Of a stretch of DNA of 38,755 nucleotides, positions 16,664-38,755 are shown piece by piece (position 1 is the first letter of the stretch; each line of letters starts with the position of its first letter). Under the pieces are notes generated by a model that did no database searches, was not told where the DNA came from, and saw nothing but the letters and a program-made list of their open reading frames with translations. The stretch comes from an uncultured Ectothiorhodospiraceae bacterium (GTDB taxonomy: Bacteria; Pseudomonadota; Gammaproteobacteria; Nitrococcales; Nitrococcaceae), in contig CAJXND010000018.1 in the NCBI GenBank assembly GCA_913056385.1, positions 1-38,755 of the forward strand, given 5' to 3'. Made by a program: the position numbers and the translations under genes.

Positions 16664-18385
16664 ATGACACCCGCCGCATGGCTCGCCCGGGAAGGCCGGG
16701 CGGTCACCCACAGGTTGCGGCTTGCCGCTCTGTACGGGGTTATCGAGGGCCTGTTGATCATCACCCAGGCGGGTCTGATCGCCTGGCTCGTTCATCGGGT
16801 GGTGATGGCGGGTGCCAGCCTGAACGCCATGCTGGCACCCGCCATGATCCTCGTGCTGGTTGTCCTGCTCCGTCCGGTGGCGCAGATTCTGCGCGCTCGG
16901 GCATCCATCGAGGCCTCGAGCCGGGTGAGACAGCGCGTGCGCTCGCGGCTGATCGACCATGCCGAGTCCCTGGGACCCGCTGGCCTTGCCGCCCGGGACA
17001 CCGGAGAAACCGCCAGCCAGCTGACCGAACAGATCAGCGCCCTGGATGGCTACTATTCGCGCTATCGACCGCAAATGACGGTGGCCGCGGTGATTCCGCT
17101 CGTCATTGCGATCACGGCATTCACGCAGGACTGGATCGCGGCTGTTTTCCTCGTCGTCTCGGCACCGCTCATCCCGCTTTTCATGGCGCTGGTCGGCATG
17201 GGGGCGGAACGTCTCAACCGCGATCAGTTCGAGTCGGTCGCCCGGCTGTCGGGGCAGTTTCTGGATCGCGTCCGTGGCCTGACCACCCTGCGCCTGTTCG
17301 GTCGGGTGCAAGACGCCACGGACGGTATTCTCGCCGGTTCAGACGAGTACAGGCAGCGCAGTATGCGGGTACTGCGTGTCGCCTTCCTGTCCTCGGCGGT
17401 GCTCGAGTTCTTCGCCTCCGTGGCGATCGCGGTGATCGCCATCTATATCGGTTTCGGCCTGCTGGGTTATATCGAGTTCGGCCCGGCGCCGGAGCTCACG
17501 CTGTTCAGCGGCCTGTTCGTGCTATTGCTCGCCCCCGAGTTTTTCCAGCCACTCCGCACGCTGGCTCAGCATTACCACGACCGCGCCACAGCGCTGGGGG
17601 CAGCGGAACTGCTGATGGGGTTCGAGGCCGAGGCTGAAACAGAGGCTGAGGATGGAGGCAGGACGGAGGCGGAAGCTCAATCCGCACCCGGCGAAACACT
17701 TCGGCAGGCAGCACCCGCCGCGACCGCCCGGACACCGGACGGACATCAGGGGCTCCGTGCGATTGATCTGAAACTCGAGCGTCCGGGTCGGGGGATCGTA
17801 CTGGAAGTCGCCGAGCTGGTCGCCGATCCGGGAGAGCGGGTGCTGATCGAGGGCCCCTCCGGTACCGGCAAGACGACATTGCTGCTCGCGCTGGCCGGGC
17901 TGCTCTCACCCGCCACCGGCGAGATCCGGCGCCCCTCGACTGATCAGCGGACGGGCTGGCTTGGTGCCCCCCCGTTCATCGCCAGTGCGACCCTGCGCGA
18001 AAACATCCGTCTGGGCTATCCAGACGCGAGCGACGATGCGCTGGAGGCGGCCGCGAACCGCGCCGGCGTCATCGAATTCGCCGAGCGACTCCCGGCCGGG
18101 CTTGATACCGGCGTTGGTGAGCGAGGCGTCGGTCTGTCCGGGGGACAGGCACAACGCGTGGCCCTGGCCAGGGCATTTGTCTCGCCGGCGCCGCTGATCC
18201 TGCTCGATGAACCGACGGCAGCCCTCGACGCTGAAACAGAGCGTTATGTCGTCGACGGGTTGGGTGCCCTGGCCGCCGAGGGGCGCATCATCGTCATTGC
18301 CAGCCACGACCGGGCGCTGCGAGACAGCGCAGAGCGCCGCTACCGGATCCGCCATGCGCGACTGGAGCCTGTCGTCGATGCATGA
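16664..18385 (+). CDS. cydD: Heme/thiol ABC exporter subunit CydD
   Basis: 573 residues from the ATG at 16664; earlier in-frame starts lie inside cydB. It has an N-terminal six-helix membrane domain (about 20-310) and a C-terminal ATPase with Walker A GPSGTGKTTLL, signature LSGGQAQRVALARAF and Walker B LILLDEPTAALD. CydDC is needed for assembly of bd oxidases, exporting thiols or handling heme, which fits its place behind cydAB. A linker of about 45 residues between the two domains is unusually rich in Glu/Ala/Thr. The signature motif is encoded partly by GGGACAGGCAC (18142-18152), and a perfect 15-bp inverted repeat lies in an early helix-coding region (16805-16845). Confidence 0.93.
   Translation: MTPAAWLAREGRAVTHRLRLAALYGVIEGLLIITQAGLIAWLVHRVVMAGASLNAMLAPAMILVLVVLLRPVAQILRARASIEASSRVRQRVRSRLIDHAESLGPAGLAARDTGETASQLTEQISALDGYYSRYRPQMTVAAVIPLVIAITAFTQDWIAAVFLVVSAPLIPLFMALVGMGAERLNRDQFESVARLSGQFLDRVRGLTTLRLFGRVQDATDGILAGSDEYRQRSMRVLRVAFLSSAVLEFFASVAIAVIAIYIGFGLLGYIEFGPAPELTLFSGLFVLLLAPEFFQPLRTLAQHYHDRATALGAAELLMGFEAEAETEAEDGGRTEAEAQSAPGETLRQAAPAATARTPDGHQGLRAIDLKLERPGRGIVLEVAELVADPGERVLIEGPSGTGKTTLLLALAGLLSPATGEIRRPSTDQRTGWLGAPPFIASATLRENIRLGYPDASDDALEAAANRAGVIEFAERLPAGLDTGVGERGVGLSGGQAQRVALARAFVSPAPLILLDEPTAALDAETERYVVDGLGALAAEGRIIVIASHDRALRDSAERRYRIRHARLEPVVDA
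16805..16845. repeat. Perfect 15-bp inverted repeat inside cydD
   Basis: atggcgggtgccagc (16805-16819) pairs exactly with gctggcacccgccat (16831-16845), leaving an 11-nt loop. It lies within codons for MAGASLNAMLAPAM. An exact 15-bp arm is unlikely by chance in a window of this size, and the hairpin would form in the mRNA about 140 nt after the cydD start. Confidence 0.6.
18142..18152 (+). repeat. GGGACAGGCAC copy in cydD
   Basis: Sense copy encoding GQA within the conserved ABC signature LSGGQAQ. The protein sequence is family-typical here, so this copy may be coincidental. Confidence 0.7.
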
Positions 18386-20090
18386 GCTGCGCCCCTATCT
18401 GAGCATGCTGCGTCCCTATCGCGGGCGCCTTCTCATCGGCGGCGCACTGATGCTGGTGACCGCGGCATCCGGGATCGGGCTACTGGCGCTCTCGGGCTGG
18501 TTCATTACCGCGACGGCCGTGACCGGCGCACTGCTCGCCGCCGGCGTCGCGGCGCGGCTTGATATCTATGTGCCGGGTGGTGGCATTCGCACGTTTGCCG
18601 TCACGCGCACTGTGGCGCGTTACTTTGAGCGGGTCTTCAATCACGACGTGGTGTTGAGGCTGCTGCGCGACCTGCGCGGACAGACCTTCTCGCGGCTGGC
18701 GAACCTCTCGCCCAGCGCACTGGGCCAGCTGCGCAGTGGCGAACTGCTCAACCGGCTGACCACTGACATCGATCGCCTGGACGGGCTCTATCTGCGGGGA
18801 CTGGCACCGCCTGTGGTGGCCGGCCTCGCGATACTGATTACCGTCGCGCTCCTGGCCATCGGCTCGGTCACCGTGGCATCAATTGCCGGCCTGACTCTGA
18901 TAACAGCGGGCGCGCTGATCGGACTTCGCGCCTGGTTTTCGGGACAGGCACTGACCAGACGCCTGGCGAGCGCCAATGCGAACCTGCGCGCTCAGCTGGT
19001 TGATCATCTTCGGGGGCTGACCGAATTGAAGGCCTTTGGCAGTGTTGGTTATCACCGCGAACGCGTGGATGGTCTCGATGAAGAGGAACGCGCGGACGAG
19101 AACCGACTCGCCACCGGAATTGCGACGGGCGAGGCGATCCTTCACGGCACGCTGCAGCTGGTCGCGGTGGGGGTCCTGCTCGCTGCCCTGAGTCTGTTCG
19201 CGGCCGATCGGATCAATGGCGCCGTTGCAGTGATGATGCCTCTGGCCGTCCTGGCCCTGCTCGAGCCCCTGGGCGTATTACCGGGATCCGGATTGCATCT
19301 GGCCCGGGCCCGGGCGTCAGCAAAGCGCCTCGACACGGGTGAGATCGGCCGTACACCCTCGAGCCACACGACACAGCCGGGACATGGCGATGGCCATGGC
19401 GATCAATCTATCGAGGCCACGCCGGGGCAGGCGTCGGATATCCGATTCGAGTCGGTCACGGTCCGTCGCGGTGCGGGTGCGAGGGTCCTCGATGAGCTGA
19501 ACCTTGCCGTGAGTGAAGGCGAACATCTCGGAATAGTCGGCGCCTCGGGCTGCGGAAAGTCGAGTCTGGCCGATCTCGTCGCCGGATGGCTCGTGCCTGA
19601 CACCGGTCGGGTATTGGCGGGGGGAAAACCGGTCGGAATGCTGGACGCCGCCAGTCATCTGGCCCGGCTGGGTTACCTGACCCAGCAGACCGATCTGTTC
19701 AGTGGAACAATCGCCGGCAATCTGCGGGTCGCCTGCCCGGACGCAAGCGAAGCCCGCCTGTGGTCTCTACTCGAAGCGCTGGCGCTGGACGAATTCGTCG
19801 CGAGTTGCCCCGATGGAATGCACACGTGGATCGGGGAATCCGGCCTGGAAGTCTCCGGCGGGCAGGCGCGGCGGCTTGCACTCGGCCGTGTGATGTTGCG
19901 CGACGCGACGATCGTCGTACTCGACGAACCCCTCAGCGGGCTGGATGAGGCCACTGCCGCGCACGTCAGCGTTGCCATTGAGCGCTGGCTCACCGGACGA
20001 ACGGCCATCGTCCTTGGTCACGAGCCCTCCGCGATTCCATCCGTCGACCGGATGCTGCAACTGCGCACAGGTCGACTGGTACCAATCTGA
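18378..20090 (+). CDS. cydC: Heme/thiol ABC exporter subunit CydC
   Basis: 570 residues from the ATG at 18378, which overlaps the cydD end by 8 nt and has GGAG at 18363-18366; longer in-frame starts lie within cydD. Six membrane helices (about 15-300) precede an ATPase domain: Walker A GASGCGKSSLADLV, signature VSGGQARRLALGRV, Walker B IVVLDEPLSGLDEAT. A His/Gly/Asp-rich linker (GHGDGHGDQS) joins the two parts. It heterodimerises with CydD. GGGACAGGCAC at 18941-18951 encodes SGQAL here. Last gene of a cydABDC operon. Confidence 0.93.
   Translation: MHELRPYLSMLRPYRGRLLIGGALMLVTAASGIGLLALSGWFITATAVTGALLAAGVAARLDIYVPGGGIRTFAVTRTVARYFERVFNHDVVLRLLRDLRGQTFSRLANLSPSALGQLRSGELLNRLTTDIDRLDGLYLRGLAPPVVAGLAILITVALLAIGSVTVASIAGLTLITAGALIGLRAWFSGQALTRRLASANANLRAQLVDHLRGLTELKAFGSVGYHRERVDGLDEEERADENRLATGIATGEAILHGTLQLVAVGVLLAALSLFAADRINGAVAVMMPLAVLALLEPLGVLPGSGLHLARARASAKRLDTGEIGRTPSSHTTQPGHGDGHGDQSIEATPGQASDIRFESVTVRRGAGARVLDELNLAVSEGEHLGIVGASGCGKSSLADLVAGWLVPDTGRVLAGGKPVGMLDAASHLARLGYLTQQTDLFSGTIAGNLRVACPDASEARLWSLLEALALDEFVASCPDGMHTWIGESGLEVSGGQARRLALGRVMLRDATIVVLDEPLSGLDEATAAHVSVAIERWLTGRTAIVLGHEPSAIPSVDRMLQLRTGRLVPI
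18941..18951 (+). repeat. GGGACAGGCAC copy in cydC
   Basis: Sense copy encoding GQAL in the membrane-domain half of CydC. It could be coincidental, as for the cydD copy. Confidence 0.7.
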
Positions 20091-20100
20091 AAATCGCCTG

Positions 20101-20127
20101 TCCGGCCGGCGATTCGGTCCGGCCGGA
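20101..20127. terminator. Possible terminator hairpin after cydC
   Basis: tccggccgg (20101-20109) pairs with ccggccgga (20119-20127), loop 9 nt, ten bases after the cydC stop. There is no T-run, so intrinsic termination is uncertain. Confidence 0.4.
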
Positions 20128-20207
20128 TCCACCGCCGCGCGCTGTGCCCGGACCCGCTTATCCGCTAGCATTGCAGCTCCATCATTGACCAGTGTGAAAG
20201 GTTCAGC

Positions 20208-21269: not shown

Positions 21270-21276
21270 TTTGATC

Positions 21277-21287
21277 GGGACAGGCAC
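21277..21287 (+). repeat. GGGACAGGCAC copy, intergenic
   Basis: Lies 8 nt after the tartrate-dehydrogenase-type stop, 34 bases ahead of the next copy. Confidence 0.9.
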
Positions 21288-21310
21288 GCTCTGATCGAGA
21301 CCGAAATTTC

Positions 21311-21321
21311 GGGACAGGCAC
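21311..21321 (+). repeat. GGGACAGGCAC copy, intergenic
   Basis: In the leader of the dienelactone-hydrolase gene. With its flank it shares the 19-mer gaaatttcgggacaggcac with the copy at 36634. Confidence 0.9.
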
Positions 21322-21349
21322 TTTAGCGACCCTCAGGAGGATCTCCGAA

Positions 21350-22117: not shown

Positions 22118-22123
22118 ATCGAG

Positions 22124-23731
22124 ATGCTCAATACGACAATGGGCATCCGCGGCATGGTGACCGCCCCCCATCACATGGCCGCCGAGGCGGGCCGCGACGT
22201 GCTCCGCGAGAACGGGACAGCCACTGAAGCAATGGTGGCTGCGGCGGCGGTCATCGCCGTTGTCTATCCGCATATGAATTCGATTGGCGGCGATGGTTTC
22301 TGGCTGATCGGTCGGCCGGGGGCGGCACCGATCGGCATCGATGCCTCTGGACCGGCAGCCAAATTGGCTAGCCGGGACTTCTACCGCGAGCACGGGTTGG
22401 CAGCGATTCCGACCAGGGGGCCAATGGCCGCACTCACGGTGCCAGGAACCATCGGAGGTTGGAAGGCGGCTTTATCCCACGCCACGGTTGAAAGGGGTAG
22501 ATTACCCCTATCGCGTCTGCTCGAACCGGCAATAGCACTGGCCCGTGAGGGTGTTCCAGTCACCTCGGGCCAAGTCCGGGTTACAAGCGAAAAGCTCGAA
22601 GAGCTCCGTGATTTGCCGGGATTCTCGAAAACCTTTCTCGATGCCTCGGATCGTCCGCCCGAATGCGGAGCACGGCTTCGTCAGCCGGCGCTCGCCGATA
22701 CGCTGGAGCACTTGGGCAGTGCGGGGCTGGATGACTTCTACCGCGGCGATATTGCCCGTAGCATGGCCGCCGATCTCGACGCGCTCGGCAGTCCTCTACG
22801 GCTCAACGACCTCCTGGAGTACAGACCACTCACGGTCGAACCACTCAGCCTCCGCCTCGGCAGAGCCCGTCTCTACAACATGCCCCCGCCCACTCAGGGA
22901 CTGGCCTCACTGTTGATACTTGGGATTCATCAAAGAGTGCCTGTCCCCGATATGGATTCGCCCGATATGGATTCGTATAGGTATGTCCACGCGCTCGTCG
23001 AATCCACGAAAAAGGCCTTCCGCGTCCGGGACAGGCACATTACCGACCCGGGCTGGATGACGGTAAACCCAGAGACGTTCCTGCGCGATGAGTGGCTGGA
23101 AGCGGCTGCCAATGAAATCGATATGACCCGGGCAGCGCCCTGGCCCCATCCGGGCGCCTCCGGCGACACGGTCTGGATGGGCGCCATCGACTCGCAGGGC
23201 CAGGCGGTCAGCTTTATCCAGTCGGTCTACTGGGAATATGGGGCGGGCGTCGTGCTACCGGCGACTGGAGTCCTGATGCAGAACCGGGGCATCAGCTTCG
23301 GTTTGGACGTACAGAGCCCGCAGGCTCTTGAGCCCAGCCGCCGACCCTTTCATACCCTGAATCCGGCGATGGCGAGCTTCGACGACGGCCGCCATATGGT
23401 CTACGGCACGATGGGCGGTGAGGGACAGCCACAAACCCAAGCAGCGATCTTCACCCGTTATGCCAATGAGATGATGCCTCTTCAAAAGGCCGTCAGTGCG
23501 CCGCGTTGGTTGCTCGGCCGAACCTGGGGGGACTCAACCACAGACCTCAAACTCGAGTCCCGATTCCCGGCGAGCCTTTTGGAGCAACTCCAGGCGGCAG
23601 GGCATGCCATTGAAACGGTGAAGGATTTCGACAGCATGATGGGGCATGCCGGGGCAATCGTGCGTCACTCCGACGGATTGCTGGAGGGTGCCAGCGATCC
23701 CCGTAGTGATGGAGCCGTGGCGGCGGGCTGA
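22124..23731 (+). CDS. Gamma-glutamyltransferase family protein
   Basis: 535 residues, Ntn-hydrolase fold. N-terminal GMVTAPHHMAAEAGRDVLRENGTATEA and GGDGFWLIG are typical. The expected autoprocessing and nucleophile Thr is T349 in SGDTVWMGAID, in the more divergent GDT form, and the C-terminal GTMGGEGQPQTQA and GASDPRSDGAVAAG are conserved. There is no signal peptide, so it is probably cytoplasmic, unlike classical periplasmic Ggt. Odd features: two GGGACAGGCAC copies in opposite directions (22937-22947 and 23028-23038), two GGGACAGCCAC copies (22214, 23422) and a 15-bp tandem duplication giving PDMDSPDMDS (about residues 275-284). The start 6 nt after the hydrolase stop suggests co-transcription. 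Confidence 0.88.
   Translation: MLNTTMGIRGMVTAPHHMAAEAGRDVLRENGTATEAMVAAAAVIAVVYPHMNSIGGDGFWLIGRPGAAPIGIDASGPAAKLASRDFYREHGLAAIPTRGPMAALTVPGTIGGWKAALSHATVERGRLPLSRLLEPAIALAREGVPVTSGQVRVTSEKLEELRDLPGFSKTFLDASDRPPECGARLRQPALADTLEHLGSAGLDDFYRGDIARSMAADLDALGSPLRLNDLLEYRPLTVEPLSLRLGRARLYNMPPPTQGLASLLILGIHQRVPVPDMDSPDMDSYRYVHALVESTKKAFRVRDRHITDPGWMTVNPETFLRDEWLEAAANEIDMTRAAPWPHPGASGDTVWMGAIDSQGQAVSFIQSVYWEYGAGVVLPATGVLMQNRGISFGLDVQSPQALEPSRRPFHTLNPAMASFDDGRHMVYGTMGGEGQPQTQAAIFTRYANEMMPLQKAVSAPRWLLGRTWGDSTTDLKLESRFPASLLEQLQAAGHAIETVKDFDSMMGHAGAIVRHSDGLLEGASDPRSDGAVAAG
22214..22224 (+). repeat. Sister motif GGGACAGCCAC in gamma-glutamyltransferase gene
   Basis: Encodes GTAT near the N-terminus. Confidence 0.75.
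22937..22947 (-). repeat. GGGACAGGCAC copy, antisense in gamma-glutamyltransferase gene
   Basis: Inverted copy, read as RVPVPD in the protein, next to a 15-bp tandem duplication. Confidence 0.9.
22946..22975 (+). repeat. 15-bp tandem duplication next to a motif copy
   Basis: cccgatatggattcg occurs at 22946-22960 and again at 22961-22975, adding the in-frame repeat PDMDS twice. The first unit overlaps the end of the inverted GGGACAGGCAC copy at 22937-22947. Confidence 0.85.
23028..23038 (+). repeat. GGGACAGGCAC copy in gamma-glutamyltransferase gene
   Basis: Sense copy encoding RDRH at a position where the family has a conserved ADR-like stretch. Confidence 0.9.
23422..23432 (+). repeat. Sister motif GGGACAGCCAC in gamma-glutamyltransferase gene
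   Basis: Encodes GQPQ, a family-conserved stretch, so it may be coincidental. Confidence 0.6.
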
Positions 23732-23740
23732 GAGAGACAA

Positions 23741-24559
23741 TCAGCGCTGACAACGCGGACAGTACACGGTGGTGCGCTGGGCGAGGCGAATTTCCCTCAA
23801 GCTACGCCCGCAACAGACGCACGGCATGCCACCTCGCCCATACGCATGGAGTGTTTGCTGGAAGTATCCGGGGACACCATCGGCGCCGCTGAAATCTCGT
23901 AGGGTTGTGCCACCCGCCTCGATCGCTTCGGCCAGAACTGCGCGAATGCAGCCGACCAGGCGATCATAGCGCTGGCGGGCAATGCGCCCCGCGGGTCGCT
24001 TTGGATGGATACCTGCGCGATAGAGTGCCTCGGTCGCATAGATATTCCCGACACCAGCCACCACATGGCTGTCCATTATCAGGTTTTTTATTCCAACACG
24101 ACGTTTGGCGGCTATATGGTGCAGGTACTGGCCGCTGAATTCGTCGCCAAGCGGTTCTGGCCCGAGCCGGAATAGCAACGGATGCTGCTCCGGTGGATCT
24201 TCGGTGATATGAAGGCTCCCGAAGCGTCGCGGGTCGTTGAATCGAAGTAGCTCGCCTGTGTCCAGCTCGAAATCAACATGATCATGGGTATTCAGTGCCT
24301 GTCCCGGCCCGACCACGCGCATATGCCCTGACATGCCGAGGTGCAGGATAATCGTAGTGCCTGCTTCGAGCCGGAATAATAGATACTTGCCACGTCGATC
24401 AAGGGAATGGATGCGGGCACCCGCGACCCGAGCGGGGTCTGTCGCCGGAACATGCCAACGCAGTCTGGGCTCTCGCACCCTCAAGCACTGTAGTCGATGG
24501 CCCACGCAATGAGGTTCCAGGCCCCGGCGCGTCGTCTCCACCTCAGGCAGTTCGGGCAT
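23741..24559 (-). CDS. mutM: Formamidopyrimidine-DNA glycosylase
   Basis: 272 residues. The catalytic N-terminus is MPELPEVETTRRGL with the essential P2 and E3, followed by RRGKYLLFRL with the beta-loop Lys and HLGMSGHMRV. The helix-two-turn-helix region is near GVGNIYATEALYRAGIHPKRPAG. The C-terminal zinc finger (CVCC ... YCPRCQ) is complete. It removes oxidised purines such as 8-oxoguanine and nicks the strand. It converges with the gamma-glutamyltransferase gene, 9 nt apart. A sense-direction GGGACAGGCAC (24295-24305) encodes GQAL at about residue 86. Confidence 0.96.
   Translation of the reverse strand: MPELPEVETTRRGLEPHCVGHRLQCLRVREPRLRWHVPATDPARVAGARIHSLDRRGKYLLFRLEAGTTIILHLGMSGHMRVVGPGQALNTHDHVDFELDTGELLRFNDPRRFGSLHITEDPPEQHPLLFRLGPEPLGDEFSGQYLHHIAAKRRVGIKNLIMDSHVVAGVGNIYATEALYRAGIHPKRPAGRIARQRYDRLVGCIRAVLAEAIEAGGTTLRDFSGADGVPGYFQQTLHAYGRGGMPCVCCGRSLREIRLAQRTTVYCPRCQR
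24295..24305 (-). repeat. GGGACAGGCAC copy in mutM
   Basis: Sense for mutM, encoding GQAL in a surface-loop region. Confidence 0.9.
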
Positions 24560-25127: not shown

Positions 25128-25197
25128 TCCTAATGCGGCGCATCATTGAATTTGCCGGTGGCAGCCTCCACCTCTTTACAAACAGATCGGCGGAGTT

Positions 25198-25208
25198 GGG
25201 ACAGGCAC
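25198..25208 (+). repeat. GGGACAGGCAC copy before cbpA
   Basis: Ends 10 nt before the cbpA ATG, in the place a ribosome site would occupy. Confidence 0.9.
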
Positions 25209-25217
25209 CAAAAGGAT

Positions 25218-26177
25218 ATGGAGTTCCAAGACTACTACAAGACGCTCGGAGTGAGCCGCGAGGCATCCAAAGATGAGATCAAGAAGGCATATCGTCGCCT
25301 AGCGCGCAAGTATCATCCGGATGTCAGCCAGGAACCGGACGCCGAAACCAAGTTCAAGCAGGTTGCAGAGGCTTATGAGGTCCTCAAGGATCCGGATAAG
25401 CGCAAGATGTATGACGAACTTGGTGAGAACTGGCAATCGGGCCAAGACTTCAGGCCACCTCCGGGTTGGGAACAGCGTGCTGGTACGCAGGGTGGCGCGA
25501 GATACAGCGCAGGCTTTGGTGATTTCAGCGATTTCTTCGAGAACCTGTTCGGAGGAGGCCTTGGTAGCGGGTTTGGCGCTAATGGTTTCGGCAGACGCGC
25601 TGATGGGGACAGGCACGCAGCAGGTTACGCAAGCGAGTTTCGCAGCCCGGATACCACGGCGAAGTTGCAGATTGACCTCGAAGACGCTTACACAGGCGCG
25701 ACCAGGTCAGTGGATGTCAGCACGGGCGGCGGATCTCCGAAACGGCTTCGCGTGAAAATCCCCGAGGGCGTTACAAACGGACAACAGATTCGACTCAAGG
25801 GCCAAGGCACCCGCTCACCCATGGGTGGCGAGCCGGGTGATCTACTCCTTGAGGTGCACATCCGCCCGCATAATCTCTTCCATCTCCGCGGCAAGGACAT
25901 CCACGTCGATGTGCCAGTGGCGCCATGGGAAGCCGCACTGGGGGGAACCATCACGGCCCCGACACTGGGCGGCAAGGTGGAGCTGAAAGTACCGAAAGGA
26001 AGCCAGACTGGCGCACGGCTACGCTTGAAAGGCCGGGGGCTGCCCGGACAGAAAAAGGGGGATCAATATGTCTCGCTGAAGATCGTCAACCCGCCGCTCG
26101 ACACGCAGCAGTCAGAGGACTTCTTTAAGTCGATGGCAGAGACCTTCGACTTCGACCCACGTGCTTCGATGAGCTGA
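25218..26177 (+). CDS. cbpA: CbpA/DnaJ-class co-chaperone
   Basis: 319 residues from the ATG at 25218 ([12 protein letters not shown]); the frame extends upstream but homology starts here. The N-terminal J domain has the HPD motif (KYHPDVSQ, about residues 34-41), a Gly/Phe-rich linker (about 80-145) follows, then two C-terminal substrate-binding domains ([19 protein letters not shown] to LKGRGLPG). The zinc-finger domain of DnaJ is absent, as in CbpA. It stimulates DnaK. The nearest purine-rich ribosome site (AGGA at 25213-25216) is only one base from the start codon; a GGGACAGGCAC copy ends 10 bases before the ATG. A second copy in the linker encodes GDRH. Confidence 0.92.
25606..25616 (+). 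repeat. GGGACAGGCAC copy in cbpA linker
   Basis: Sense copy encoding GDRH in the Gly-rich linker of CbpA. Confidence 0.9.
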
Positions 26178-27186
26178 AACGAAGGCGTTCGCCAGCCCGC
26201 CTGAAAAGTGCGGCGGCAAGCCCGCGGCCTTTCAAATGGTGACGCCCGAGAGATTCCGCCCATGATCCGAGACTCTCGGGGTCACCGAGCACGGCCAACC
26301 CACGCCCGCTACCACCAGCGACAAAATCGCCGAACACGTCAGACCCAATCCCCAATCGCTCTAATACCGGCGGTATATCCTCCGGCATAGCTGCGCCTTT
26401 GCCAGCGATAACCGCCCGACCACTCCAATCGATGAGCTCTAGGTATTCGAGCGAGGTCACTGGAAGCGGAGTCAACTCCTCGTCACCCTTGACCGTCCCA
26501 TTTGCCGGGAAATCCATCACCTTGGGACCTATCCCCACAAACGGCCGACCAGCCGCGGCAGAGAACCGTTGAGCCACAGAGGCGTACTGCGCATCTTCAG
26601 GGCGCTCGACCATCCCTGCCCTCAGAGGATTGAGGTCCACATAGGCCATAGCAGTCATCAATGCCCCTTCATCCAGCAATGCCTGACAGCGGTAGCGCCC
26701 TTGCCAAAAATGGCCACTCACCTGGTCTTCCCGATTCGCCCGACGAGCGATCGGTTCGTTCATGCAGCGCATGAACCAGGACAGGCTCATCAGGCGGGAT
26801 CGATACATCGCCACGATGAGCGCCATCGACGGATGCGACGCCATCCGATGGCCGGATTCCACAACCTCATGCATCCACGCAGGCCCTTTGAAAAGCATTA
26901 GCCAGCGCCTCAAGACTTCATGTGGCGTCCACGATCTGGCGGTTTGTTCATCTATATGCACTACCAAATGGTAGTGATTGGACATCACGGCGTAGGCGCA
27001 GACATCGACAGCGAAGACCTGAACGAGCCTTTCTAAGCGCTGACATATCCACCGTCGCCTATGCGAGTAATCCCTCCCCGTCAGCGGGTCATGACCGCAC
27101 AAAAACTCGCGCCTCACGCATCGAGATACGAGGTGATAACAAGGCGTTGCCTTGAGCGATATCTGATTGCGACGCGGTTGCCCCAT
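26125..27186 (-). CDS. REP-associated tyrosine transposase (RAYT), HUH/Y1 family
   Basis: 353 residues from the ATG at 27184-27186 ([31 protein letters not shown], the usual RAYT start); the open frame runs back to 27306, but those 40 residues do not look like the family. HUH motif: SNHYHLVVH. The probable nucleophile Tyr is in [12 protein letters not shown], a RAYT hallmark. [13 protein letters not shown] is also conserved. Enzymes of this group act on single-stranded DNA and are linked to short dispersed repeats. There are no partner genes, no target duplications and no obvious IS ends. Its 3' end overlaps the cbpA 3' end by 53 nt. It contains no exact copy of GGGACAGGCAC, but copies lie at 25606 and 27669 on either side. 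Confidence 0.88.
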
Positions 27187-27769
27187 CCCTGGATAACCTT
27201 CGGTGTTCAGTTCAATCTGTCGTAAATGCTTCAGGAACTGTGGTGGCAGCCGCCGGCGTCCCGGCGTGGCATCCATTCCTATGCCGGGTTGCCGGCGACT
27301 GGCCACGGACTCAGTCTCGGAAAAGTGCTCCTGAATTGCCAGTACCTAAGGGCCGGAACCGACAGGCGGTGGTCGTTTCAGGATCAACGGCTAATCAGGG
27401 GTGGCTCGCCTCACTCGCGACATCCGCCCAAGAGGGCCACGAGTCAATCCAATAGCGGGAAAGAGTAGTGTCCGAGCGATAAAGGCGACCAGCCGCCAGC
27501 CCAAGCGGTTTTTCAGCGTCCCTGCTGCCGTATCCGACGGGCCAGCGACTGGTCTAGGACAGAGTATCTCCAACCGCCACCGCGAAAACCATCCCCCATA
27601 TGCGGGGTATGGATGATGCTTGTCGCTCTTCGGCAAACGCCTTAACCTCTTACGGCAGGCAATATTTTGGGACAGGCACTCATGCGGGTAGGCATCCCTC
27701 GCGAGCGGATTCAGTACTCCCGCAGGTCTCACACCGGTCATCGACATGGCCATCACAGAGCGGACCTCC
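27187..27769. other. Non-coding stretch upstream of the RAYT gene
   Basis: About 580 bases between the divergent RAYT and pcm-like genes. It holds one GGGACAGGCAC copy (27669-27679) and a weak imperfect hairpin around 27591-27612. A minus-strand frame (27391 to about 27680) has no recognisable similarity and no good start; it could be a remnant. I see no clear promoter, REP palindrome or RNA gene here. Confidence 0.5.
27669..27679 (+). repeat. GGGACAGGCAC copy upstream of RAYT and pcm-like genes
   Basis: Intergenic, about 480 bases upstream of the RAYT start and 91 bases before the pcm-like ATG. Confidence 0.9.
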
Positions 27770-28456: not shown

Positions 28457-28780
28457 ATGCAGAGCTTGACGCCCCAGGAGCTCCACCAAAAGATTGAACA
28501 GGGACAGGCACAAATTATGGTCCTCGATGTACGGGAGCCATGGGAGGCTCACCTCGCCCGACTCGAGGGAAGCGTCCTTGCGCCCATGAGCACCCTCGGC
28601 ACCGGAGTCATGGCCGATTTGCCGGATGACAGAGATATTGTTGTCCTCTGTCATCACGGCGTTCGAAGTGCCATTGTGAGTCTGTGGCTTGAACAAAATG
28701 GCTTGGAACGAGTCTTTAATCTGAGTGGTGGGATCGACGAATGGTCCCTCACCGTCGATCCTAGCCTGCCCAGGTACTAA
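28457..28780 (+). CDS. Single-domain rhodanese
   Basis: 107 residues, cytoplasmic. LDVREPWEAHLARLEGSVLAPM and the active-site loop LCHHGVRSAIV (Cys about residue 70) identify a rhodanese; FNLSGGIDEWS near the end is standard. Position between a PCMT-like gene and tolC is a known gammaproteobacterial arrangement. GGGACAGGCAC (28501-28511) falls in codons for QGQAQ early in the protein. No good ribosome site is visible before the ATG at 28457. Confidence 0.9.
   Translation: MQSLTPQELHQKIEQGQAQIMVLDVREPWEAHLARLEGSVLAPMSTLGTGVMADLPDDRDIVVLCHHGVRSAIVSLWLEQNGLERVFNLSGGIDEWSLTVDPSLPRY
28501..28511 (+). repeat. GGGACAGGCAC copy in rhodanese gene
   Basis: Sense copy encoding QGQAQ just before the first beta-strand. 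Confidence 0.9.
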
Positions 28781-30142: not shown

Positions 30143-31483
30143 TCAACGCGTTTTCTGGCTATCTGATACGACAGTCAGAAAACGCTGATCCGCGAAAATA
30201 GTCCCTTGAAGAGCGCCCATCGTGCGCTCCGTTGCCCCTCCGTGCTCCTCCACAAGTCGCCTCGCGTTTTCTCCTACCTCCGCAAGATGGTGGCTGTCCC
30301 GAAATAATGACATGAGCGCGTCAGAGAGCTCGGTCGCGCTATGCACCCGAATACGCCCACCACACTCCCCCAAAAAGCCGTCGATCTGACGGAAATTGGT
30401 GACATCCGGTCCCATCAAAATCGGTTTGGCCAAGGACGCCGGCTCGAGAGGATTATGTCCACCGACCGGTGTGAGCGTGCCACCGACGAACGCGATATCA
30501 GCGGCGGACAGAAACCGGATCATCTCTCCGTATGTATCGGCAATGACTACGCTCGTTACGGGAGCTAGCGGTTCGTCATCATGCAGTTCCGAAGCTATCA
30601 GAAGGTGCCTGTCCCGAACCGAGCGTTCGCTATCATGCGCGTGCGCCTCAGTAGCAGGCCACATGAACTGCCCAGGATGTCTCGGCACTGCGATGAGGAG
30701 TGCATTCGGGTAGCGCGCGCGCAGTAACTCGTGGGCCTCTCTCACTATCGGCGCCTCCGCCTGCCTCAGGCTCGCCGCCACCCAGACCGGTCGATCGCGA
30801 CCGATCTGCGACCGCAGGACCCGTCCCAGTCGGATCTGGTGATCGTTGATGGATTGATCGAACTTGAGATTGCCCGTGACGTGTATCCGCTGATGAGGGA
30901 CACCCATTTTTCTGTACCGCTCCCCGTCGGCCTCGGTTTGCGCGGCAATGCAGGCAACCCCCTCCAGGCATTGGCTCATCAGGCGTCCGAATCGCGCATA
31001 TCGCCGGAAACTGGTCTGGCTGAGACGGGCATTCACGAGGGCGACGGGGATGTTTCTTCTAGCGAGGGCGATCAGTCGATTGGGCCATAGTTCCAGCTCG
31101 ACGAATAAGACGGCAGAGGGCCGGAGCTTATCGAGGAACCGCTCAATCGCATCCGGGACATCCAGCGGAGGGAATCTCACCACAATATCGGCGCCATAAC
31201 GATCCTCGGCGGTCTGACGGCCCGTCGGTGTGTTCGTCGTGATAAAAAGTGGCAGATGCTCCTCTCGCAGCCGATCGATCAGAGGCTGAGCAGCCCGGAC
31301 CTCACCCACCGAAGCCGCATGAATCCAGATGGATCCTTGAGTAACCGAACGATAATCACCCCGCCCCCATCGCTCTCCGACGCCACGTCGGTAGGCTGGA
31401 TCCTTTCGCCCGAGCCACGACAGATAAGCATGTACAAGCGGCCGCAAAAGCCGAGATAACAGTTGGTAGGAAGTGACCGTCAT
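30143..31483 (-). CDS. waaA: 3-deoxy-D-manno-octulosonic acid (KDO) transferase
   Basis: 446 residues. An N-terminal membrane-associated segment precedes GSIWIHAASVGEVRAAQPLI with the catalytic Glu, then LFITTNTPTGRQTAEDRYG, LFVELELWPNRL, and in the C-terminal half GNLKFDQ, VGGTLTPVGGHNPLEPASLAKPILMGP. It adds KDO to lipid IV-A at the cytoplasmic face of the inner membrane. Start overlaps the upstream GT9 stop by ATGA (31480-31483). Two motif copies lie within it: GGGACAGGCAC (30605-30615, sense, RDRH) and GGGACAGCCAC (30290-30300, RDSH). Confidence 0.95.
   Translation of the reverse strand: MTVTSYQLLSRLLRPLVHAYLSWLGRKDPAYRRGVGERWGRGDYRSVTQGSIWIHAASVGEVRAAQPLIDRLREEHLPLFITTNTPTGRQTAEDRYGADIVVRFPPLDVPDAIERFLDKLRPSAVLFVELELWPNRLIALARRNIPVALVNARLSQTSFRRYARFGRLMSQCLEGVACIAAQTEADGERYRKMGVPHQRIHVTGNLKFDQSINDHQIRLGRVLRSQIGRDRPVWVAASLRQAEAPIVREAHELLRARYPNALLIAVPRHPGQFMWPATEAHAHDSERSVRDRHLLIASELHDDEPLAPVTSVVIADTYGEMIRFLSAADIAFVGGTLTPVGGHNPLEPASLAKPILMGPDVTNFRQIDGFLGECGGRIRVHSATELSDALMSLFRDSHHLAEVGENARRLVEEHGGATERTMGALQGTIFADQRFLTVVSDSQKTR
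30290..30300 (-). repeat. Sister motif GGGACAGCCAC in waaA
   Basis: Sense copy encoding RDSH. Confidence 0.75.
30605..30615 (-). repeat. GGGACAGGCAC copy in waaA
   Basis: Sense copy encoding RDRH. Confidence 0.9.
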
Positions 31484-32646
31484 ACGACCAACCGGTCCTC
31501 AACCGGCGTGGACATCAACTCATCCAGCTTTGCGATTACAGCCGCTGGTTTGATCAACTCCATGGCATGAGGATCCCTCACCCGTTTACCCCAATGGACA
31601 TCATCCACCCCTCGGTTCAATGACTCCCGAACCGCCTGCGGATAGGCATTAACCACCCATCGCATGCCAAGCACCGGGCCCGTCCGCTCCGGATTGGAGG
31701 TCGCATAGAGACCAATCGCTGGAATTCCAGCGGCGACCGCCATATGCAAAGGACCCGAGTCCGGCGCGAGCACGGCCGTTGCCCTCTGCATGAGCGCAAA
31801 CAGTGTCTTGAGATCCGTCCGTCCAATCAGGTTCAGGATCGGGACAGGCACTTTCTGACCGCGCATGTTCTCGCTGGATTGATGATGCAGCGCGCCTGTT
31901 ATCCGCTCTCCATAATCTCGCTCGACCTCGCTTTTGCCGCCGGTCAGGATGATTCGCAGTCCGTGTACCGATGCCGCATACCGAGCAACCTCCGCATAGT
32001 AGTCCGGAGACCAGTTTCTGAAGTTCCGGAAACGATCACTGCTGCATGGGCTGATCAGCAAGATGTTAGGAGCCGTTGTCATATCGTCACCGGCACCTGA
32101 CGCTCCCGGACCAAGTTCCGTCAGCCAATGCTCCGCTCGTTCTCTTGAGCGAGTGGGAACCGGGATGCCCCAACGCAGATGACGCTCCTGAACACCGAGC
32201 GCCTCGCAGAAACCGAAAAAGCCATCGATGACATGGCCGGGCGGAGTGCTCGGAATGCGTTGATTAATGAATAGGCCATGCCCATCCCTCGAGCGTGACC
32301 TATCGAATCCGATACGTACCGGTGCCTTGACCACCCGCGATGCCAGCCCTGCACGAAGCGCTACCTGCATGAGCAACAAAGTGTCAAAAGATCGACCGGA
32401 CAGTTTGTGGCGAAGGGTGCCTGTCCCGGATTGTTTGTCGTGAGTGATAACCTCTACACCGTCAAGATCACCGAGCAGGGCGGCCTCGGTCTGGCCCATG
32501 ATCCAGGTAAGCCGCGTCTCTGGCAGATGCTGCTGAAGAGTGCGAACAATGGGAACCATGTTGCAGCAATCACCAATCGCCGAGAGACGGAACAGGCACA
32601 GTCGATGTGGTGCATTGGCACTCACGGGTGATTGTTGATGGTGCAT
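31480..32646 (-). CDS. Glycosyltransferase family 9 (heptosyltransferase-like)
   Basis: 388 residues. LCLFRLSAIGDCCNMVPIVRTLQQ at the N-terminus and LAPDSGPLHMAVAAGIPAIGLYATSNPERTGP near the C-terminus are GT9 hallmarks. NILLISPCSSDRFRNFRNWSPDYYAEVARY is in the middle. It most likely adds heptose to the LPS inner core, acting in sequence with WaaF; heptosyltransferase I is the natural guess but III/IV types are possible. Its ATG (32644-32646) lies inside the 5' end of divergent kdkA; a GTG at residue 8 would reduce this overlap. It contains GGGACAGGCAC at 32417 (sense, GTGT) and at 31841 (antisense, VPVP). Confidence 0.88.
   Translation of the reverse strand: MHHQQSPVSANAPHRLCLFRLSAIGDCCNMVPIVRTLQQHLPETRLTWIMGQTEAALLGDLDGVEVITHDKQSGTGTLRHKLSGRSFDTLLLMQVALRAGLASRVVKAPVRIGFDRSRSRDGHGLFINQRIPSTPPGHVIDGFFGFCEALGVQERHLRWGIPVPTRSRERAEHWLTELGPGASGAGDDMTTAPNILLISPCSSDRFRNFRNWSPDYYAEVARYAASVHGLRIILTGGKSEVERDYGERITGALHHQSSENMRGQKVPVPILNLIGRTDLKTLFALMQRATAVLAPDSGPLHMAVAAGIPAIGLYATSNPERTGPVLGMRWVVNAYPQAVRESLNRGVDDVHWGKRVRDPHAMELIKPAAVIAKLDELMSTPVEDRLVV
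31841..31851 (+). repeat. GGGACAGGCAC copy, antisense in GT9 gene
   Basis: Read as KVPVPI in the protein. One of only two antisense copies inside genes. Confidence 0.9.
32417..32427 (-). repeat. GGGACAGGCAC copy in GT9 gene
   Basis: Sense copy encoding GTGT. A one-mismatch copy (GGAACAGGCAC) lies on the plus strand at 32589-32599 in the same gene. Confidence 0.9.
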
Positions 32647-34895: not shown

Positions 34896-35855
34896 GTGTC
34901 CGATCCGACAACTCGCCCCTCGTATCACCCGCAGAACGCCGGCCAATGGCTAATGCTGGCGCTGCTCTGGCTGATCGGCAAGCTTCCGCCCAGAGCAGCA
35001 TTTTCCGTCGGTGAATGGACGGGCGTGCTGCTGCGTCTGTCCAGACAACGGCGCCAGATCGCACTGCGGAACCTCGAACTTTGTTTCCCGGAATTGGGAC
35101 AGGCACAACGTGAGCAGCTGGTCCGTGAGAATCTTTGCTATATGGGCAGGGCCATCGCGGAAACAGCACTCGCATGGTTTGGCGGGAGAAGCGTTGACGA
35201 AATCCCGTGCCAGGTCAGGGGCCTCCATCATCTTCAGGCCGCACAGGCAGACGGCAGCCCGGTCATCCTCCTCTCGGGACATTTCCTGTGCGTCGAGCTG
35301 GCAGCAAGGCTCATCGGACCGCAGCTACATATGGCTGTGATCTACAAACCATTGCGGAAAAAACCACTTATGGACCGAGCGATGCTTCGGAGCCGATCGA
35401 GGACCCTCGCCGGCGCGATACCTCGAGATGATCTGCGGGGCATCATTCGAACGCTCAGGAGCGGAACCCCGGTCTGGTATGCAGGCGATCAAGATTACGG
35501 CGTAAGAAACAGCGTTTTTGTGCCGTTCATGGGCGTCCCTGCCGCCACGATCACCGGACTGACCCGTCTCAGCAAACTTGGAAAAGCGCGGGTCGTACCG
35601 CTCTCCTTCAACGTGAATGCCTCCGGTAATGGATATGAAGTAACGCTTGGTAAAGCCCTGGAGGGTTTCCCGACCGGTTCCGATATTCTTGATGCGCAAT
35701 GGATGAATGCGGTCATAGAACGCGGAATTCGCGCGCACCCAGAGCAATACCTATGGGTCCATCGTCGATTCAAGCATCCGCCACCGGGTGAGCGGCCCGC
35801 TTATCGCAACTCGCTGCAGAAGCCCTACAACCGGATCAAGGGTGCCCCGTGGTGA
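34896..35855 (+). CDS. Lipid A lauroyl/myristoyl acyltransferase (LpxL/HtrB family)
   Basis: 319 residues from a GTG at 34896. One N-terminal membrane helix is followed by the acyltransferase motif HFLCVE (H-x4-E) in ILLSGHFLCVELAARL, then AVIYKPLRKKPLMDR, WYAGDQDYGVRNSVFVPFMGVPAATITGLTRLSK and HPEQYLWVHRRFKHPP. It transfers a secondary acyl chain to KDO2-lipid IV-A at the inner membrane. No strong ribosome site precedes the GTG. GGGACAGGCAC (35096-35106) encodes LGQAQ. It overlaps waaF by 7 nt, so the two are coupled. Confidence 0.9.
   Translation: MSDPTTRPSYHPQNAGQWLMLALLWLIGKLPPRAAFSVGEWTGVLLRLSRQRRQIALRNLELCFPELGQAQREQLVRENLCYMGRAIAETALAWFGGRSVDEIPCQVRGLHHLQAAQADGSPVILLSGHFLCVELAARLIGPQLHMAVIYKPLRKKPLMDRAMLRSRSRTLAGAIPRDDLRGIIRTLRSGTPVWYAGDQDYGVRNSVFVPFMGVPAATITGLTRLSKLGKARVVPLSFNVNASGNGYEVTLGKALEGFPTGSDILDAQWMNAVIERGIRAHPEQYLWVHRRFKHPPPGERPAYRNSLQKPYNRIKGAPW
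35096..35106 (+). repeat. GGGACAGGCAC copy in lpxL-like gene
   Basis: Sense copy encoding LGQAQ. Confidence 0.9.
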
Positions 35856-36988
35856 GTGCACCGACCGATTCGGGCGACGTGAATCCAATCCTGATCGTCG
35901 GACCGGGCTGGGTCGGTGACATGGTCATGGCGCAGAGTCTATGCAAGGCACTCAAACAAGAGGCACCCACTCGCCCGATCGATGTGATCACCCCACCTTG
36001 GGGACAGGCACTGCTCGAACGCATGCCGGAAGTCCGACGTGCGATTCCCTTGGCTGTTGGGCACGGGAAACTGGGATTGGGCAGACGCTGGAGACTGGGA
36101 AAGGCACTCCGCGAGCAGCGCTATGCGCAGGCGATCGTACTGCCGCGCTCGGCAAAGGCTGCATGGGCGCCATGGATCGCGCGCATCCCGCGCAGAACAG
36201 GCTACCTCGGTGAGTATCGCTATGGTCTGCTGAACGATATCCGCCCGCTCGACCGGGCGAGGCATTACCGGACGGTCGATCGCTTTGTCGCCTTATCCAA
36301 TCCAGCGGGCGTCGGAGCGGACATTGAGCGATCGGCGGAAGGTTCTGGGACAGGCACAAACCGATTCAACATCCTGCATCCAGCCCTTGAGAGCTCAAAT
36401 GCTCAAAAATCATCGGCAATACAGCAACTTGATCTTCCCATCGCTTGGGGATCAGCGGCCACGCGATCCGGGACAGGCACTATTCTCACGCTCTGTCCGG
36501 GGGCGGAATACGGGCCGGCGAAGCGATGGCCGGCTGAGTACTTCGCGAGCCTTGCGAGGACATATCTCCAGCGGGGCTGGTCGGTGTGGATGCTGGGATC
36601 CAGCAAAGACACACGAATGACCCGGGAAATTTCGGGACAGGCACCCGGTGTGGTGGATCTTGCCGGCCGCACGACACTGAGCCAGGCAATCGATCTACTG
36701 GCTGCCAGCACGGTGGTCGTGACCAATGATTCCGGCCTGATGCATATCGCAGCCGCGACGTCCACGCCACTCGTCGCACTATACGGCTCCTCAGATCCTC
36801 AATATACTCCGCCACTTAGCGACAACGCCGAGATCATCTACAGGGATCTTGACTGCAGCCCCTGCTTTGAGCGCGTCTGCCCTTTGGGGCACCTCAAGTG
36901 TCTCCGCAGCATCGACTCGCACCAGGTGGCTGAGGCGGTCGATCGAGCAGCATCAGCGGATGCCCACACCCGCAAATCGAGATTCTGA
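35849..36988 (+). CDS. waaF: LPS heptosyltransferase II
   Basis: 379 residues from a GTG at 35849 (a second GTG follows directly). N-terminal ILIVGPGWVGDMVMAQSLCKAL, then LPRSAKAAWAPWIARIPRRTGYLGEYRYGLLNDI, and C-terminal LCPGAEYGPAKRWPAEYF, VVTNDSGLMHIAAATSTPLVALYGSSDP and CSPCFERVCPLGHLKCL are all typical of WaaF. It adds the second heptose. It is about 30 residues longer than the E. coli enzyme as I recall it; the extra length seems to lie near 160-215, where two GTGT stretches are encoded by GGGACAGGCAC copies (36347, 36470). Two more copies at 36001 and 36634 encode GQA. Four copies in one gene is the highest density in the window. Confidence 0.92.
   Translation: MVSAPTDSGDVNPILIVGPGWVGDMVMAQSLCKALKQEAPTRPIDVITPPWGQALLERMPEVRRAIPLAVGHGKLGLGRRWRLGKALREQRYAQAIVLPRSAKAAWAPWIARIPRRTGYLGEYRYGLLNDIRPLDRARHYRTVDRFVALSNPAGVGADIERSAEGSGTGTNRFNILHPALESSNAQKSSAIQQLDLPIAWGSAATRSGTGTILTLCPGAEYGPAKRWPAEYFASLARTYLQRGWSVWMLGSSKDTRMTREISGQAPGVVDLAGRTTLSQAIDLLAASTVVVTNDSGLMHIAAATSTPLVALYGSSDPQYTPPLSDNAEIIYRDLDCSPCFERVCPLGHLKCLRSIDSHQVAEAVDRAASADAHTRKSRF
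36001..36011 (+). repeat. GGGACAGGCAC copy 1 in waaF
   Basis: Sense copy encoding WGQAL. Confidence 0.9.
36347..36357 (+). repeat. GGGACAGGCAC copy 2 in waaF
   Basis: Sense copy encoding GTGT in the variable middle of the protein. Confidence 0.9.
36470..36480 (+). repeat. GGGACAGGCAC copy 3 in waaF
   Basis: Sense copy encoding GTGT just before the conserved LCPGAEYG motif. Confidence 0.9.
36634..36644 (+). repeat. GGGACAGGCAC copy 4 in waaF
   Basis: Sense copy encoding SGQAP. Shares a 19-base identity with the intergenic copy at 21311. Confidence 0.9.
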
Positions 36989-37961: not shown

Positions 37962-38755
37962 TTGAGTACCGGTCAGGGACAGGCACCCTCGGAGCGGGAT
38001 ACGGGACAGGCACTCTCCCTCTCCGTTGCCATCATCACCAAGAATGAGGGCGATAACCTGCCGAGACTCCTGGATAGCCTGACGGCCCTGAATCCCCGCG
38101 AGGTTATCGTGGTCGACTCCGGCTCGACCGACGATACCGCAGAAATCGCCCGCGCCCGCGGTGCACAAGTCGTCGTCACCGACTGGCCAGGCCATGTCGA
38201 GCAGAAGAACCGGGCCCTCGATGCCTGTACTCAGCCATGGATCCTGTCATTGGACGCCGACGAGCCGATCAGTGCCGAACTGGCTCATAACCTTCGCGAT
38301 CTCCTGGGAAATAGCGAGCCGGACAAGGATGGCTACGAGATCAGCCGCCTGACCTGGTATCTCGGTGACTGGCTCCGGCATATCTGGTATCCGGAGTGGC
38401 GACTCCGCCTGGTGCGCAATGGCAAGGCACGATGGACAGGCCACAACCCGCACGATCGGCTTGAAACCAATGGCAGCGTCGGCCGCATAAACGGGGACAT
38501 CCACCATTACTCCTATATGGATGTCGAGGACCACTTCCGGCGTAGCATCGACTATGCGCGCATCGGTGCGCATGCCCTTGCCGCCCGTGGCAAACGCTTC
38601 CGTTGGCACAAGATCGTGCTTGCGCCACTGGTTCGCCTCATCCGCCTGATGATTGTCCGTCAGGGCTGGAGAGATGGATGGCGCGGATGGATCATCGCCT
38701 GGTCCTCGATGTTCTCCTGTTTTCTCAAGTACGCCTTCCTCTATGAAATCGAGAG
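37962..38755 (+). CDS. Glycosyltransferase family 2, WaaE/KdtX-like (3' end cut by window)
   Basis: The frame is open to the window end. The conserved GT2 start LSVAIITKNEGDNLPRLLDSL, nucleotide-sugar site VIVVDSGSTDDTAEIAR, GHVEQKNRALDACTQPWILSLDADEPIS and EWRLRLVRNGKARW match the WaaE/KdtX family of LPS core glucosyltransferases. No ATG or GTG lies upstream in frame. The best start is TTG at 37962 (AAGG at 37948-37951), with TTG at 37953 or 37941 as alternatives. From 37962 the first 20 or so residues are mostly encoded by two GGGACAGGCAC copies (GQGQAPSERDTGQAL), so the N-terminus looks repeat-derived. It follows the UDP-xylose synthase gene directly. Confidence 0.85.
   Translation, partial: MSTGQGQAPSERDTGQALSLSVAIITKNEGDNLPRLLDSLTALNPREVIVVDSGSTDDTAEIARARGAQVVVTDWPGHVEQKNRALDACTQPWILSLDADEPISAELAHNLRDLLGNSEPDKDGYEISRLTWYLGDWLRHIWYPEWRLRLVRNGKARWTGHNPHDRLETNGSVGRINGDIHHYSYMDVEDHFRRSIDYARIGAHALAARGKRFRWHKIVLAPLVRLIRLMIVRQGWRDGWRGWIIAWSSMFSCFLKYAFLYEIE
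37976..37986 (+). repeat. GGGACAGGCAC copy at the start of the GT2 gene
   Basis: Encodes GQAP in the N-terminal tail, 27 bases ahead of the next copy. Confidence 0.9.
38003..38013 (+). repeat. GGGACAGGCAC copy, second in the GT2 gene
   Basis: Encodes GQAL immediately before the conserved SLSVAIITKNE start of the GT2 domain. Confidence 0.9.

Follow-up and report, generated by a model that had tools for sequence, protein, structure and literature searches.

A linear sequence mark clusters around RAYT-type Y1/HUH genes and follows them in its spelling

In the present study, dense clouds of a short DNA mark were found around genes for RAYT-type Y1/HUH proteins. Density is high at linked RAYTs, and the spelling of each cloud matches the RAYT beside it; in two exceptions no RAYT was found. 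Moreover, in mobile members of the family the RAYT gene forms a short element that ends in inverted copies of the mark, clearly at the left ends and less sharply at the right ends. Herein, we propose with moderate confidence that each mark is a solo copy of the RAYT's linear recognition (end) sequence, spread and kept near the gene by a cis-acting HUH nuclease. The results suggest that enzyme and marks evolve as one local system. The window, that is, the whole stretch of DNA analysed, is one entire contig of 38,755 bases (C18) from a genome of 1.95 Mb in 86 contigs (G000).

The window contains 21 exact copies of the mark GGGACAGGCAC and 13 with one mismatch, where 0.97 would be expected (Table 1). 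Genome-wide, 22 exact copies were counted in 1.95 Mb, 21 of them in the window's contig, and 5 copies of a reversed control pattern. The contig that holds 21 of the 22 copies also carries the sole RAYT found: a genome-wide Y1_Tnp search at E<=1 returned the gene at 26125-27186 alone (14.8 bits, under the family cut-off), in agreement with the first-pass annotation of a single RAYT. That annotation had also placed the motif at 25606 and 27669, on either side of the gene, and had called it dense nearby; both copies are exact, and the density is larger than it had stated. Four neighbouring pairs of marks lie less than 150 nt apart. A REPIN is a mobile unit of two inverted REPs, and the marks of the window do not take this form, as they are non-palindromic and one of the four close pairs (22937/23028) is inverted. 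Ordinary genes surround the RAYT (mutM-like, cbpA, PIMT, rhodanese, outer membrane efflux protein and LPS genes), and no Rfam matches were obtained in 18000-38755. The overlap of the RAYT with the 3' end of cbpA, noticed earlier, measures 53 nt. A geneless stretch of about 580 bases had been said to follow the RAYT; the stretch is real and 559 nt long, but, because the RAYT lies on the minus strand with this stretch on its 5' side, the gene is preceded by it.

Table 1. Positions of the RAYT gene, the marks and the adjoining features in the window.
Feature	Position	Strand	Basis or remark
RAYT-type Y1/HUH protein, 353 aa	26125..27186	-	ORF, Pfam/NCBIfam, alignment, AlphaFold model; architecture like TnpAY1 subclass 2.3
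DnaJ/CbpA gene (cbpA)	25146..26177	+	3' end overlaps RAYT by 53 nt; two marks in ORF
Spacer, 5' side of RAYT	27187..27745		559 nt without clear gene; one mark
Mark GGGACAGGCAC, in gene	18142..18152	+	exact match
Mark, in gene	18941..18951	+	exact match
Mark, between genes	21277..21287	+	exact match
Mark, between genes	21311..21321	+	exact match
Mark, antisense in gene	22937..22947	-	exact match
Mark, in gene	23028..23038	+	exact match
Mark, mutM-like gene, sense	24295..24305	-	exact match
Mark, 5' end of cbpA ORF	25198..25208	+	exact match
Mark, cbpA linker	25606..25616	+	exact match
Mark, spacer upstream of RAYT	27669..27679	+	exact match
Mark, rhodanese gene	28501..28511	+	exact match
Mark, KDO-transferase gene, sense	30605..30615	-	exact match
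Mark, antisense in gene	31841..31851	+	exact match
Mark, in gene, sense	32417..32427	-	exact match
Mark, lipid A acyltransferase gene	35096..35106	+	exact match
Mark, glycosyltransferase family 9 gene	36001..36011	+	exact match
Mark, same gene as 36001	36347..36357	+	exact match
Mark, same gene as 36001	36470..36480	+	exact match
Mark, same gene as 36001	36634..36644	+	also in G009; G001 without mark, length unchanged
Mark	37976..37986	+	exact match
Mark	38003..38013	+	exact match
Near-mark GGGACAGCCAC	22214..22224	+	six copies; other starts 23422, 28300, 28853, 30290, 34155

The RAYT is an intact open reading frame of 353 aa counted from the ATG at 27186, where the alignment of its relatives begins; the program's list of reading frames opens it at the GTG at 27306. 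The HUH motif (H71-Y72-H73) and Y182---N186-P187 are invariant in 13/13 aligned RAYT sequences, and the window's RAYT thereby carries the HUH plus Y---NP motifs given as the signature of class 2 TnpAY1 (RAYT/TnpAREP) in the passages of PMC6006769 on this class. The Pfam model Y1_Tnp scored 23.2 bits on the protein, barely above the cut-off of 23, and the NCBIfam model REP_Tyr_transpos 46.6 bits, under its cut-off of 80. In the AlphaFold model (pLDDT 74.7, pTM 0.79), residues 227-240 and 319-353 are unreliable. Its best PDB match is the E. coli RAYT 4er8 (Foldseek E 3.6e-3, probability 1.00), whose fold it shares (VIA Z 11.6, 159 residues, rmsd 3.1), followed in rank by IS200/IS605 transposases. 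A sequence search of solved structures was set aside; its top match was an unrelated kinase domain (E 0.016), with an IS200-type transposase at E 0.39. Subclass 2.3 of TnpAY1 is described in parts of PMC6006769 (Quentin 2018) as a long protein with insertions beta1/alphaA and beta3/alphaC and a long C-terminal part. The length of 353 aa, a 19-residue stretch between strand 16-22 and helix 42-57 and the helices 80-132 after the HUH strand appear to fit this description, as judged from the modelled protein against the text of PMC6006769. The dN/dS of the genus RAYT is 0.14, 0.08 and 0.09 in three pairs, and the inverted end pair that defines a TIRYT or TIRtron is absent at 12/12 genus loci; the window's RAYT has one family variant 224 nt after its stop and no left partner. 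The RAYT of the genus is a resident gene under purifying selection, without an inverted end pair.

The marks do not behave as hairpins. In DNA folding at 12 genus loci, their mean structure was weaker than that of random windows in 12/12, the two being nearly equal in G003 and G004. Within 1 kb of the window's RAYT, two hairpins with a GT(A/G)G foot were found, a number reached in 16/50 first-order shuffles (mean 1.44); this chance level bears out the earlier remark that no REP-like palindromes are evident around the gene, and the flanking palindromic REPs with a GT(A/G)G foot of a classical REP-associated RAYT were not found there. In the genus clouds, A/T is preferred 3-4 bases before the mark, and GTAG or GTAC, recalling the REP foot, is seen in some genomes.

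The distribution of the mark was followed by counting GGGACAGGCAC in 59 genomes, the window's own included, and at least one copy was present in 38. Within the genus, the own genome has 22 copies, six others 20-39 and the last seven 0-4. Among genomes outside it, 40 copies were counted in G038 and 30 in G036, both with RAYTs of the window's family. This family was found in 11/14 genus genomes (9/9 of the near-complete ones), in 21/54 genomes of the order and in 55/370 genomes searched in the class. In the six genomes spelled GGGACAGGCAC, the bulk of the copies is no more than about 15 kb from the RAYT and a few extend to 40 kb, the fetch limit; on one side of the window's RAYT, the contig stops after 12 kb. 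Some marked contigs of G036 have no RAYT on the same contig. A more distant RAYT-like match in Chromatiales BM003 (L045, PKUM01000048.1) lies on a contig with 14 copies of another local repeat, AAATAAACC.

Two RAYT loci are present in the genus, locus A in the window's neighbourhood (seven genomes) and locus B in another (five genomes), with G011 having both. At locus B, polA lies 9-13 kb from the RAYT, and the RGACANNCA marks within 1.5 kb on either side of polA number 13 in G006, 18 in G003, 12 in G005, 16 in G011 and 12 in G004. In eight genus genomes in which no locus-B RAYT was found, two of them (G007 and G010) 84-86% complete, the numbers are 2, 1, 0, 0, 0, 1, 2 and 2, and in ten outgroups 0-4. 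The two exceptions are G008 (74% complete), with 16 marks around polA, and G034 (99% complete), with five co-oriented GGGACAGGCAC within 5.5 kb; no RAYT was found in either at E<=0.01. The G008 marks form a dense AGACACCCA cloud around polA at L195 and L221 (G008:C207), where no RAYT was found, and those of G034 lie at L219 (G034:C44), contig positions about 18700-24210, and are perhaps relics of a lost RAYT. The first-pass annotation had held that the motif in genomes with no RAYT would speak against an association; these two genomes are partial cases of what it had named, one incomplete and one with five marks. Close homologues of the RAYT in genomes where the motif is absent had been named likewise. 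Such homologues exist in G005 (2 copies of GGGACAGGCAC) and G006 (0 copies), yet this literal test misleads because each of these RAYTs carries its own spelling nearby.

The spellings in the genus were found by counting repeated 9- to 11-mers around each RAYT with no prior pattern, and all belong to one family, RGACANNCA. While GGGACAGGCAC is the common spelling of six genus genomes, G005 has GGACAGACAC (26 in 64 kb), G006 TGGACACCCA (44 in 60 kb), and G003 and G004 TGGACAGGCA (44 in 40 kb and 27 in 32 kb, respectively). In G011, two RAYTs 190 kb apart have two clouds and two spellings, AGGACAGGCA around RAYT a (30 in 80 kb) and AGACACCCAC around RAYT b (60 in 80 kb). The latter 60 are among 78 copies in G011, 42/53 copies of AGGACAGGCA lie in C12:32-175 kb around RAYT a, and each spelling has only 2 copies in the 80 kb of the other RAYT. 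On the tree, the spelling requires 30 changes against a shuffled mean of 45.8 (0/200 shuffles as low), in a test that counts loci without a spelling as one group and in which near copies alone can make spelling cluster.

The spelling also differs at single sites. When any RGACANNCA was counted at codons homologous to the marks of genomes whose motif differs, the genome's own dinucleotide was found at 24/26 sites in G006, 12/19 in G005, 19/29 in G003 and 17/21 for G011 RAYT b, although part of these counts is no test of switching because G006 and G011b share CC and G003 and G004 share a motif. The mixture in G004 (14 CC and 8 GG of 26) counts against our explanation. On contig C8 and others of G004, GG and CC are mixed around one RAYT, and AGACACCCAC occurs on other contigs too; this genome is perhaps in transition, or its 86%-complete assembly perhaps lacks a second RAYT. 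One polA site reads GGACACCCA in G006, GGACAGACA in G005 and GGACAGGCA in G003 and G004, and 19 other genomes have no mark there, the G012 row being misaligned. The early guess of a RAYT branch with a different kind of DNA mark has thus gained substance: the mark is non-palindromic and unfolded, and is tied to the RAYT by place, spelling and element ends.

Many of the marks lie within genes. In G000, 18/21 are in genes, with called genes covering 87% of the window; at locus B, where they are somewhat rarer in genes, G003 has 28/44 at 92% coverage. Given this coverage, the marks are not enriched in genes, a point against our explanation. The sense direction is taken by 16/18 in-gene marks in G000 (locus A) and by 21/38 in G006 (locus B). 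At locus A (window 18000-38755), the marks follow the coding strand, 13/14 on one gene strand and 3/4 on the other in G000. Protein tolerance and transcription are candidate sources of this sense-strand bias, which also counts against our explanation. Marks are shared at orthologous codons in 14/18 cases between G000 and G009 and in 11/16 between G000 and G001, against 0.9 expected, and are kept in proteins as low as 54% identical; GGA CAG GCA, GAC AGG CAC and GGG ACA GGC AC are retained despite available synonyms and variable surrounding linkers. Unshared in-gene marks coincide with alignment gaps in 33/402 cases at locus A (1.6% at random) and 56/359 at locus B (2.5% at random). At L130 (G038:C1, contig about 345830-346002), an in-frame array of eight inverted marks lengthens an open frame by a GQA-rich stretch. 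This frame seems to resemble glycogen synthase. The excess at gaps and the in-frame array make some insertion likely. Most unshared marks are off the gaps, which stands against our explanation and rules out pure insertion into genes as the only route; most mark gains look as if they happen in place.

For a wider survey, loci were hand-picked from among the matches in the order and class searches and 78 stretches were fetched; the L130 stretch is the neighbour of L129 and has no RAYT of its own. The commonest local 9-mer in these stretches was often of the family RGACANNCA. This pattern was defined after the commonest 9-mers of the same loci had been viewed, and 20 control stretches, every one taken from a surveyed genome, were scored alike, as were permuted patterns. 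The top-scoring of 32 variants outdid 400 permuted patterns (p<=0.01) in 44 of the 83 RAYT stretches of at least 10 kb, that is, in 12/12 in the genus and 32/71 outside it, and in 0/20 control stretches. The 39/83 RAYT stretches that miss p 0.01 stand against our explanation.

The ends of the mobile form were located by comparing RAYT copies within one genome or clade. The shared DNA begins 80-101 nt before the gene in 8/11 pairs and 16-32 nt before it in the other three. In G334, the mark is at the left boundary in 5/5 copies and inverted beyond the stop in 4/5; both marks are present in 2/2 copies of G352, and the copies of G179 have the right mark and no left one. Right ends are less sharp, shared DNA stopping near the gene end in 3/4 G334 pairs. 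Of 82 loci outside the genus, 48 have a mark 60-110 nt upstream of the start and 52 have its inverse 60-260 nt downstream of the stop; both ends are marked in 31, with an identical 9-mer in 16, and the opposite orientation is rare. These positions, together with the inverted orientation, show the mark to be the terminal inverted repeat of mobile RAYT elements. No target duplication was seen by eye at four G334 copies. In a plasmid collection, 10 of 16 RAYT records were examined: a left mark lies at -74 to -79 in four (three Pseudoalteromonas and one Shewanella), marks are nested in Vibrio tritonius NZ_CP152309.1 and Photobacterium NZ_CP073579.1, no clear pattern was seen in the Catenovulum, Saccharobesus and P. 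piscicida records, and no mark was seen in the Pseudoalteromonas NC201 record.

Extra marks near the class-level elements share the polarity of the nearer end, by 16:1 (0.3-1 kb) and 27:3 (1-3 kb) on the left and 36:4 and 32:17 at the same distances on the right. This polarity is lost at 3-10 kb (27:19 left, 17:17 right), and in the genus clouds the orientation no longer follows the element. The five recent RAYT copies of G334, four of which are 86-92% DNA-identical to the fifth, have 2-3 copies of their commonest mark, the single RAYT copies in G179 (L160) and G400 (L110) have 4, and the resident RAYTs of the genus have 12-28 marks within 10 kb, suggesting that clouds may grow with the residence time of the RAYT.

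Under the explanation that we favour, the HUH nuclease would recognise the linear mark in single-stranded DNA and would act mainly in cis, near its source gene. Nicking and strand transfer might add marks or convert near-matches to the current spelling, and copies that harm proteins would be purged. As the specificity of the RAYT drifts, marks would be rewritten singly, so that the same codons come to carry different spellings; point mutations under selection could also be a route for this rewriting. More tentatively, and with less than even confidence, we raise the idea that a transposase-derived HUH nuclease rewrites patches of about 10-14 nt around its own gene, polA codons included, as a protein-specified, cis-limited sequence-conversion drive. 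In that case, dozens of sites, including sites in essential genes, would share a single spelling that evolves together with the enzyme. Selection on the host side might account for the marks instead, with a domesticated RAYT serving as a local DNA-binding or ssDNA-processing factor (e.g. in fork rescue or local regulation) and the marks arising as its sites by ordinary mutation, with no copying. The marks kept at orthologous codons in diverged proteins, the mark that differs in place without a change of length, the low dN/dS of 0.08-0.14 and the genus RAYTs without an end pair are all consistent with this account. We nevertheless consider it rather unlikely, as it requires weak selection at dozens of sites per spelling change and does not predict that extra marks outside the genus are oriented like element ends; in addition, the in-frame arrays of G038 look inserted, as judged from G038 itself.

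The polarity of the extra marks found up to 3 kb from class-level elements, as well as the five co-oriented marks of G034 without a RAYT, would be expected if the marks were passive relics, namely old ends from nested or one-ended transposition that now only decay. This reading appears improbable, since the spelling of the present RAYT is found at most homologous codons, locus B without a RAYT is almost markless, and the orientation of the genus clouds is no longer element-like. A host landmark unrelated to the RAYT, such as an uptake sequence, Chi, KOPS or a macrodomain or partition site, could also be a short non-palindromic motif with strand bias; however, place and spelling track the RAYT in the genomes examined (the two clouds of G011, and polA with and without a RAYT), and we give this alternative very little credence. 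Equally hard to credit is an ordinary REP/REPIN system missed in the first pass, which would involve the same protein superfamily, because the marks fold no better than random windows and lie in coding sequence and GT(A/G)G hairpins are at chance.

In the open-access literature searched, the string GGGACAGGCAC gave no match on RAYTs or repeats by title, and four related mark strings gave none on RAYTs by title among the matches listed; TIRYT or TIRtron was found only in PMC3733652 and PMC6006769, and a query for a RAYT with a non-palindromic clustered repeat returned only a match on E. coli transcription factors. As far as these searches go, the linear mark of a subclass-2.3-like RAYT, the cloud in coding sequence and the concerted respelling at homologous codons are new. 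The spelling around each gene suggests the target of its protein, a readable specificity code, and many protein-target pairs are therefore testable. The marks also provide a natural record of repeat turnover, site by site, inside conserved genes, in which the spread of REP-like repeats and the persistence of RAYTs become directly testable.

Local repeat build-up near RAYT genes is already known for palindromic REPs: parts of Nunvar 2010 (PMC2817692) describe it in regions of up to 200 kb in three marine gammaproteobacteria and the betaproteobacterium Thauera, with repeat numbers that track the presence of a rayt gene. The present system resembles it in having a Y1/HUH protein with its own repeat gathered near the gene; however, REPs are described there as a GT(A/G)G head with a GC-rich imperfect palindrome, mostly extragenic, whereas here a linear, unfolded mark lies largely within coding sequence. 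IS200/IS605 TnpA proteins (IS608, ISDra2) share the HUH-Y1 fold and the lack of a target duplication, judged here by eye at four G334 copies, but have subterminal hairpins in the account given in parts of PMC6006769, in place of the short inverted linear marks that serve as ends here. For the TIRYT/TIRtron elements of Di Nocera 2013 (PMC3733652), the passages on them describe RAYT-like genes between inverted repeats, some at similar distances, some sharing GGGGWSAS and some in repeat families; NGGGACAG matches GGGGWSAS when N = G, and N varies. The local cloud and the change of spelling are absent from these passages, and an inverted pair is lacking at the window's RAYT. TnpAY1 subclass 2.3, according to the sections of PMC6006769 on it, is common in certain Gammaproteobacteria, whose genomes carry several divergent copies, and has no REP hairpins, and for subclasses 2.1 and 2.3 REP-like sequences were not found there by automatic or manual search. 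The window's RAYT seems to resemble this subclass in its length, its insertions, its long C-terminal part and its lack of REP hairpins. Whereas those sections assign no repeat to the long-C-terminal RAYTs of that survey, a linear repeat is herein given to this subclass-2.3-like branch.
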